From Halococcus qingdaonensis (GTDB lineage Archaea; Halobacteriota; Halobacteria; Halobacteriales; Halococcaceae), in assembly GCF_024508235.1 (NCBI RefSeq), contig NZ_CP101943.1, forward strand, positions 620,001 through 684,000: a stretch of DNA of 64,000 nt, written 5' to 3'. The number at the start of each line of letters is the position of its first letter. Position 1 is the stretch's first letter. Below the pieces are notes generated by a model, which had not been told where the DNA came from, ran no database searches, and saw only the letters and a program-made list of their open reading frames with translations. This document shows positions 6,097 through 7,443 of this stretch, one piece after another. The position numbers and the translations under genes were made by a program.

Positions 6097-6579
6097 TCAG
6101 AGGAGGATGACGGCCACGAGCGCGACGAGCATCGTCACCGTCACGAGCAGCTGGACGACCGTCGAGGCGAGCACCCCGATGGCGGCGTAGAGCGCCGCGC
6201 GCAGGCTGCGTTCGGGGTCGCGGTGGCGATAGAACTCGACGGTGAACACGGTGCCGGCGACGCCGAGGACGATGCCGAGCGGCCCGACGACGAAGAAGAG
6301 GGCGATACCGACGACCGCCGCGAGCGTCGTCGTGACTATCGACGCGCCGCCGGCGCGCGCCGACACCGCCCCACCGAAGTAGTCCGCGACGAGCGCGAGC
6401 ACGCCCACCACGGTCAGCGCGGCGAGCAACAGCGGCCCGGGCTCGGTGTAACCGCTCGCCCACCAGTAGAGGTAGACACCGACGAGCGAACTCAGCGTGC
6501 CCGGCACCAGCGGCACGACGCTGCCGACGACGCCGACGACGAGCAGCGCGAACGAACCGACGACGAGCCAGTCGACCAT
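6097..6579 (-). CDS. DUF456 family membrane protein
   Basis: A 160-residue integral membrane protein with about five hydrophobic segments and the glycine-rich pattern of the DUF456 family (ADYFGGAVSARAGGAS, then GIVLGVAGTVFTVEF). The family has no established biochemical function. The chosen ATG begins MVDWLVVG directly into the first helix; longer frames run through the riboswitch region and are not credible. A TATA-like sequence at 6602-6608 lies about 25 bases before it, so the transcript is probably leaderless. The same sequence can serve the divergent fluoride-exporter operon. Confidence 0.85.
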   Translation of the reverse strand: MVDWLVVGSFALLVVGVVGSVVPLVPGTLSSLVGVYLYWWASGYTEPGPLLLAALTVVGVLALVADYFGGAVSARAGGASIVTTTLAAVVGIALFFVVGPLGIVLGVAGTVFTVEFYRHRDPERSLRAALYAAIGVLASTVVQLLVTVTMLVALVAVILL

Positions 6580-6601
6580 GCGCCACGTGCGATCCCGGCG
6601 G

Positions 6602-6608
6602 TTATATA
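6602..6608. promoter_or_regulatory. crcB: Shared TATA element between DUF456 gene and crcB operon
   Basis: TTATATA reads as a TATA box in both directions. Rightward, the expected start about 25 bases on falls at about 6630, just where the fluoride riboswitch begins. Leftward, it falls at the DUF456 ATG. The double fit is seen in the sequence; its use in both directions is inference. Confidence 0.6.
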
Positions 6609-6630
6609 CGGACGGACCGAATGCCGCCCA

Positions 6631-6691
6631 TCGGGCGATGGGGTCCGCCTGCCACAACCGCTGGGCATCCAGCTGATGACTCCTCCCGGAG
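6631..6691 (+). promoter_or_regulatory. crcB: Fluoride riboswitch (crcB RNA motif) with likely Shine-Dalgarno control
   Basis: The order of elements matches the fluoride aptamer: GGGCGATGGGGTCCGCC (6633-6649, with GGCG/CGCC pairing), ACAACCGC, a CTGG-GCAT-CCAG hairpin (6661-6672), then GCTGATGACTCCT (6672-6684). GGGGTC at 6640-6645 can pair with GACTCC at 6678-6683 to form the pseudoknot-proximal stem. CTCC at 6680-6683 is also complementary to GGAG at 6688-6691, the Shine-Dalgarno of the first crcB gene six bases before its ATG. This predicts that fluoride binding frees the ribosome site. The downstream genes being fluoride exporters supports the call. Confidence 0.93.
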
Positions 6692-6697
6692 ATTGCC

Positions 6698-7087
6698 ATG
6701 TCGGGACCCCATCCACTTCGCACGTTCGAAACGATTGCCCTGATCGCCATCGGCGGGTTCGCCGGTGCGAACCTCCGCTTTCTCGTCGCACGACTCCTCC
6801 CGGGAGCGGGCGGGACGCTCCTCGTCAACGTCGTCGGCAGTTTCGTGCTTGGCTTCGTACTCTACGAGGCGCGCTATACGGGAGTCCTCACCGAGCGGGC
6901 ACGGCTGGTCCTCGCGACCGGCTTCCTCTCCTCGTTGACGACCTACAGCACCTTCGCGCTCCAGACGACGCTGCTCGCCCGCCCGGTGTGGATGGTCGCG
7001 AACGTGCTCGCGACCTACGCGCTCGGGTTCGGTAGCGTGCTCGTGGGACGGGCGTTCGCCCGCCGGATCGGTGGAGGCGATCGATGA
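6698..7087 (+). CDS. crcB: Fluoride exporter Fluc/CrcB, subunit 1
   Basis: A 129-residue four-helix membrane protein of the Fluc family, which exports fluoride as a dual-topology or heteromeric channel. Family hallmarks are GGFAGANLRFL (residues about 19-29), NVVGSFVLG and the GFLSSLTTYSTF stretch with the conserved phenylalanine and Thr-Thr/Ser-Thr pair lining the fluoride path. The ATG has GGAG six bases upstream and lies behind the fluoride riboswitch. The stop overlaps the ATG of the second subunit (ATGA), so the two are made together and probably form a heterodimer with opposite orientation. Confidence 0.95.
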   Translation: MSGPHPLRTFETIALIAIGGFAGANLRFLVARLLPGAGGTLLVNVVGSFVLGFVLYEARYTGVLTERARLVLATGFLSSLTTYSTFALQTTLLARPVWMVANVLATYALGFGSVLVGRAFARRIGGGDR

Positions 7088-7443
7088 CCGCGATCGATCC
7101 GGCCCATCTCGTCGGCACGGGTGGTGCGCTCGGTGCGCTCGCCCGGGTGTACGTGAGCCAGCGTTTCGAGGGCGAGTACCCGGTCGGTACGCTCGTCGTC
7201 AACGTTCTCGGCAGCCTCGTGCTCGGACTGGTGACGTTCGCGGGTGCGGGCGAGACGATCGTTCTCCTGGTCGGTACGGGCGCGTGTGGCTCCTTCACGA
7301 CCTTCTCGTCGTTCTCGTTCGAGACCGTACGTTTGATTGAGGAGGGTGAAATCGGGCGGGCAGCGGTCAACGGACTCGCGAACCTCGTCGGATCGCTCGC
7401 GGCGATCGGGCTCGCGTGGCTCGTCGTTCGCGCGGTCGGCTGA
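7084..7443 (+). CDS. crcB: Fluoride exporter Fluc/CrcB, subunit 2
   Basis: A 119-residue partner of the preceding gene with the same signatures: GTGGALGALARVYVS near the start, NVLGSLVLG in helix 2, and GACGSFTTFSSFSFET in helix 3. It is shorter at the N-terminus than its neighbour and has a different charge distribution, as expected for pairs of Fluc proteins inserted in opposite orientation. Its ATG overlaps the preceding stop by four bases. It ends five bases before the convergent tmcA gene. Confidence 0.95.
   Translation: MTAIDPAHLVGTGGALGALARVYVSQRFEGEYPVGTLVVNVLGSLVLGLVTFAGAGETIVLLVGTGACGSFTTFSSFSFETVRLIEEGEIGRAAVNGLANLVGSLAAIGLAWLVVRAVG

Follow-up and report, generated by a model that had tools for sequence, protein, structure and literature searches.

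The fluoride-exporter operon and its leader

The window, a stretch of 64,000 nucleotides from the genome of Halococcus qingdaonensis, contains two genes for Fluc subunits, crcB1 and crcB2, which overlap by the sequence ATGA (7084-7087). This overlap suggests that they are translationally coupled and together encode a two-subunit Fluc channel. Both products match PF02537, and the host belongs to the genus Halococcus, in agreement with a preliminary description of this locus as a haloarchaeal Fluc operon. Its crcB1 is closest to the relatives in H. morrhuae and H. thailandensis, at 92% identity. The features discussed below all lie on the forward strand, with aptamer positions following the Thermotoga petrophila (T. 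petrophila) numbering:

6602..6608 (+), TATA box TTATATA, centred 28 nt before G1
6633..6684 (+), fluoride aptamer core (G1 = 6633, U48 = 6684), within the RF01734 match at 6625-6692
6633-6649 (+), 5' segment of the aptamer, GGGCGATGGGGTCCGCC, seen directly in the sequence
6638-6640 (+), ligand-site strand A6-U7-G8
6640..6645 (+), GGGGTC, 5' strand of the pseudoknot (positions 8-13) and at the same time the strand of the fluoride site
6660..6673 (+), P3 hairpin GCTGG-GCAT-CCAGC (cmscan alignment and fold)
6672-6684 (+), 3' segment of the aptamer, GCTGATGACTCCT, seen directly in the sequence
6674 (+), U38
6676-6678 (+), A40-U41-G42, an ATG inside the aptamer (6676..6678), out of frame with crcB1
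6678..6683 (+), pseudoknot 3' strand GACTCC (positions 42-47; cmscan alignment, fold and comparison of 69 loci)
6680-6683 (+), CTCC, pseudoknot positions 44-47, with GGAG as alternative partner
6684 (+), U48
6688..6691 (+), GGAG, Shine-Dalgarno (SD)-like and putative anti-pseudoknot arm, with the ATG 6 nt downstream
6698..7087 (+), crcB1, Fluc subunit of 129 aa (PF02537, 67.9 bits), ATG at 6698-6700
6704..6713 (+), GGACCCCATC, crcB1 codons 3-6, a perfect complement of 6637-6646 that competes in predicted folds
7084..7443 (+), crcB2, Fluc subunit of 119 aa (PF02537, 90.2 bits)

In archaea, transcription usually starts about 25-27 nt from the TATA box, which from the position of TTATATA predicts a start at about 6630-6633. 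The register of the box supports this; all eight aptamer-bearing Halococcus congeners have an AT-rich box centred at -28/-29 relative to G1, while the sequence surrounding it differs among them, and in other haloarchaeal families the box lies at about -32. The leader would then consist essentially of the aptamer plus 13 nt, about 68 nt in all, so the earlier prediction of a start near 6630 and a nearly pure-aptamer leader gains from this shared register.

Within 6578-6608, the TATATA box may also serve both strands: a DUF456 gene (PF04306) on the minus strand has its start at 6580, and the centre of the box is 25 nt away, as expected of a leaderless mRNA. In another congener (L093, genome G208), crcB1 has a TATA box and a leader of similar length without a recognisable aptamer, and the riboswitch was probably lost there.

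A Rfam covariance-model search of the 64-kb window matched RF01734 (the crcB motif) at 6625-6692 on the forward strand with 46.7 bits (E 8.9e-10), compared with a gathering score of 34 bits. RF01734 was the sole Rfam family above its cut-off in the window, and the 2.70-Mb genome contains a single copy of the fluoride riboswitch. The pseudoknot joins 6640-6645 with 6678-6683 (GGGGUC/GACUCC) in six pairs, including one wobble (G10-U45), and the core residues A6, U7, G8, U38, A40, U41, G42 and U48 are complete. Across 69 haloarchaeal loci, A6, U7, G8, A40 and G42 are invariant (69/69), and U38 and U48 are present in 68/69. Pseudoknot pairing holds in 412 of 414 cells over these loci, against 200-282 in a slid control, and pairs 10-45, 11-44 and 12-43 occur as several pair types, with both sides varying. 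Given the score, the pairing and the invariant residues, the element is, by sequence standards, certainly a fluoride riboswitch aptamer. The preliminary description had recognised it without a database search, and the covariance model bears this out; TTATATA, GGGCGATGGGGTCCGCC, P3, GCTGATGACTCCT, CTCC, GGAG and the ATG all lie where they had been placed.

The riboswitch thus adds a genuine, well-formed example to an already known family, with which it shares P1, P3, the six-pair pseudoknot, the ligand-site residues and the crcB/Fluc genes downstream. It differs from RF01734 members generally in its expression platform, which is only 13 nt long and lacks a terminator.

Several other haloarchaeal fluoride aptamers depart from this form. 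In Natrialbaceae, the aptamer carries C41 instead of U41, and P3 is very variable and often very long. C41 aptamers occur at L035-L069 (except L040 and L046), L096-L100, L104, L105, L107, L110, L114, L119, L122, L125, L131 and L132. Many of those in Natrialbaceae fall short of the RF01734 cut-off or escape the model altogether, and the exact 3' core CGGCTGACGGTCCCT is found in 71/125 Natrialbaceae genomes (0 for the reversed control). Two genomes have a second fluoride aptamer (L031 with L006, and L032 with L004), located about 415 nt from the crcB one and ahead of a different reading frame (MGQQDT...), where the SD is of the GGAGG type and the spacer is 33 nt long. At L007 and L013, no full-length open crcB1 frame follows the aptamer and spacer complementarity is poor, as if these loci were decaying, and degenerate aptamer remains precede crcB1 at L103, L111 and L113 in other haloarchaea.

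Probable occlusion of the start region and competing explanations

CTCC at 6680-6683 belongs to the pseudoknot stem and is also complementary to GGAG at 6688-6691; the sequence bears out both complementarities as previously described. We consider it probable that the riboswitch is an ON switch for translation of crcB1-crcB2, in which the aptamer 3' strand hides the start region and SD pairing is optional. Without fluoride, CTCC would leave the pseudoknot and pair with GGAG just before the AUG, hiding the ribosome landing site. Binding of fluoride and Mg2+ would lock the pseudoknot, leaving GGAG and the AUG region single-stranded, and the exporter would be made. The essential act would be to cover the 13 nt that separate the aptamer from the AUG, and the same layout would be manageable without GGAG, as in the relatives described below. 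At the level of sequence, the aptamer with its pseudoknot, the operon, the register of the promoter and the CTCC strand common to both pairings are themselves established.

When transcripts of increasing length were folded in silico, the transcript to the AUG gave -22.1 kcal/mol for the SD-hairpin state, and -17.3 kcal/mol for the aptamer plus -7.4 kcal/mol for pseudoknot stacking, with no pseudoknot penalty applied. The two modelled states are close in energy, so the ligand could tip the balance. As a plain duplex with the aptamer 3' strand, the window spacer surpassed neither its shuffled versions (p 0.39) nor other starts (p 0.25-0.30).

The preliminary description had gone further and proposed a switch acting on the SD site. 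In its strict form, fluoride would expose GGAG to the 16S anti-SD, and SD pairing itself would drive translation. GGAG does precede the ATG by 6 nt, and five of the eight Halococcus loci retain it (L001, L014, L017, L022 and L027). The 16S rRNA ends in CACCTCCT, and its 3' end GGATCACCTCCT, containing the anti-SD, occurs twice in the genome. SD-like sites are also not rare in haloarchaea, with GGAG found before 12/72 ordinary starts outside Natrialbaceae (family f4) and 4/77 within it, and some gas-vesicle genes of haloarchaea are SD-responsive, according to a passage of PMC8241225 (citing Sartorius-Neef and Pfeifer, 2004). Against this, translation of the leadered sod gene of Haloferax volcanii is independent of SD complementarity in its 5'-UTR (PMC3986360). 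GGAG is reduced to GAG in one congener (L030), absent from two others (L015 and L016), found in 0/35 Natrialbaceae riboswitch loci, and missing from nearly all other haloarchaeal loci. Furthermore, the ACUCCU of the aptamer consensus is anti-SD-like, and any SD there is therefore complementary almost automatically, making complementarity alone weak evidence. Covariation support for the CTCC/GGAG pairing is impossible, since CTCC never varies within Halococcus. Hence, the complementarity part of the earlier claim stands, while a role for the SD is only plausible; the emphasis on this site is not established, and it may be secondary to start-region occlusion. We regard a strict SD switch as rather unlikely. 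Many methanogen fluoride aptamers, unlike those of haloarchaea, are followed by an SD-like GGAG/GAGG.

Translation and transcription are coupled in archaea, and the mRNA level could therefore follow any change in initiation. Fluoride might also alter termination or mRNA decay instead of initiation, and bacterial fluoride riboswitches mostly overlap terminators (PMC2864571, PMC11077080). However, a search of 6560-6800 yielded no terminator-like site, and five consecutive T are absent within 3 kb, making control by termination unlikely, and the 13-nt spacer is too short for a separate terminator. With no intrinsic terminator or oligo-T tract overlapping the aptamer, a terminator riboswitch was rejected, and control at the RNA level as a whole seems improbable.

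The folds contain a further competitor, within the coding sequence. Without fluoride, crcB1 codons 3-6 (GGACCCCATC) could bind the aptamer loop (GATGGGGTCC), thereby holding the aptamer open. The complementarity is perfect over 10 bp (-19.3 kcal/mol as a duplex), and once 6713 is transcribed the helix enters the minimum-energy fold and outweighs the aptamer (-40.4 kcal/mol in silico, versus -25.9 plus -7.4 for the locked aptamer). It also appears, with mismatches, in the folds of L014 and L017. However, the aptamer folds first during transcription, and synonymous shuffles of the codons are equally strong (p 0.33, 0.16, 0.14, 0.29 and 0.74 for L001, L022, L027, L014 and L017, respectively, 0.33 being the value in the window), for which reason we rejected the helix as a selected feature. 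Across the class, complementarity to the aptamer is even lower for the actual early crcB1 codons than for synonymous choices (median p 0.79). From the equal strength of the shuffles and this class-wide avoidance, we regard the helix as a by-product of protein sequence and base composition which could affect the real RNA, and a coding-region anti-aptamer as highly improbable.

A decoy start, where ribosomes without fluoride would initiate at the out-of-frame aptamer AUG until fluoride buries it and redirects them, was rejected as barely credible: although the 35 U41 loci all have this AUG, at the ligand site, and in the window its frame runs on without a stop beyond the beginning of crcB1, its frames relative to crcB1 are uniform over these loci (13/13/9, as expected without selection), and 34 loci have ACG instead.

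The start-proximal element of haloarchaeal relatives

Start-region occlusion with optional SD pairing can be compared with the arrangement in other haloarchaea. RF01734 matches occur in 66/392 Halobacteria genomes, and a crcB1 relative in 375/392. In 65/69 haloarchaeal loci, U48 and the ATG are separated by 10-19 nt, and in 37/69 riboswitch loci the ATG is directly preceded by CAGC[C/T]. This is the case for only 1/149 other starts (0/77 in Natrialbaceae and 1/72 outside), which rules out CAGCC as a generic haloarchaeal start context. The element is found in 26/35 Natrialbaceae loci, where the spacer is of the type ...CAGTCAGCC, and in 11/34 other riboswitch loci. In the window, the CAGCC of the relatives has decayed to TTGCC, with the GGAG hairpin in its place. 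Of some 24 crcB1 genes in which no aptamer is recognisable, CAGCC precedes only L116 and L118, both from Natrialbaceae; L118 also retains aptamer remnants.

CAGCC is complementary to GGCUG, which comprises the P3 arm and junction of the aptamer 3' strand. Longer pairings between spacer and aptamer were found at L002 (GGCTGATG..CATCAGCC) and L063 (GGCTGACGG..CCGTCAGCC), as well as at L004 and L006, where ATGACTC..GAGTCAT includes the start codon. The partners also change together. Spacers taken from C41 loci favour pairing with the C41 strand over the U41 strand, with a mean difference of -2.29 kcal/mol compared with -0.19 and -0.77 kcal/mol for other spacers and background (p below 0.001, although the across-family p-values for spacer pairing ignore relatedness). 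A G lies opposite C41 in 12/17 cases, and within one genus GATGAC/GTCATC (L018 and L019) is replaced by the compensatory GACGAC/GTCGTC (L046).

Together, the enrichment of CAGC[C/T] and these partner changes suggest that the start region is masked by the 3' strand and that an SD is unnecessary. We tentatively propose a class-wide, SD-free ON platform as a possibility somewhat short of even. In it, a short anti-aptamer, mostly CAGC[C/T] and touching the AUG, would pair with the aptamer 3' strand (the P3 arm, junction and pseudoknot strand), and fluoride would free the AUG. Halococcus would represent a sub-type, with the SD-like GGAG as its anti-aptamer.

Comparison with known systems and significance

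A close natural counterpart is found in Thermococcus kodakarensis, whose fluoride riboswitch (Speed et al., 2018, as described in a passage of PMC8241225) is likewise archaeal, associated with fluoride-exporter genes and presumed to control translation. That passage calls it the sole experimentally determined archaeal riboswitch. T. kodakarensis is, however, a hyperthermophile from a lineage with mainly SD-leadered mRNAs (PMC7531240), whereas the window comes from a haloarchaeon, for which use of the SD is doubtful. In Haloferax volcanii, synthetic theophylline riboswitches demonstrate that an ON switch hiding both SD and AUG works in a haloarchaeon (PMC8241225), although these respond to another ligand and keep the SD in their design, while the riboswitch in the window is natural. 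In the transcriptional fluoride riboswitch of Bacillus cereus, the expression platform competes for the pseudoknot 3' strand (PMC11077080, PMC8752731), as we propose here, but the competitor is a terminator hairpin, which the window lacks. A pseudoknot wobble, U-G at pair 13-42, is critical for switching in B. cereus (PMC11077080). In the window this pair is C-G and the sole wobble is at 10-45, so the likeness is only an analogy.

To our knowledge, very few archaeal riboswitches have been tested. Haloarchaeal mRNAs are largely leaderless and translation is largely SD-independent, which raises the question of how a riboswitch could control translation in these organisms. The locus described here, with its leader of about 68 nt, nearly all of it aptamer, placed before a gene with a simple selectable phenotype (fluoride resistance), would make this question testable in Haloferax or Halococcus. 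The riboswitch in the window could also provide a natural inducible expression system for haloarchaea, and its relatives suggest that haloarchaea run a fluoride sensor without the usual Shine-Dalgarno signal.
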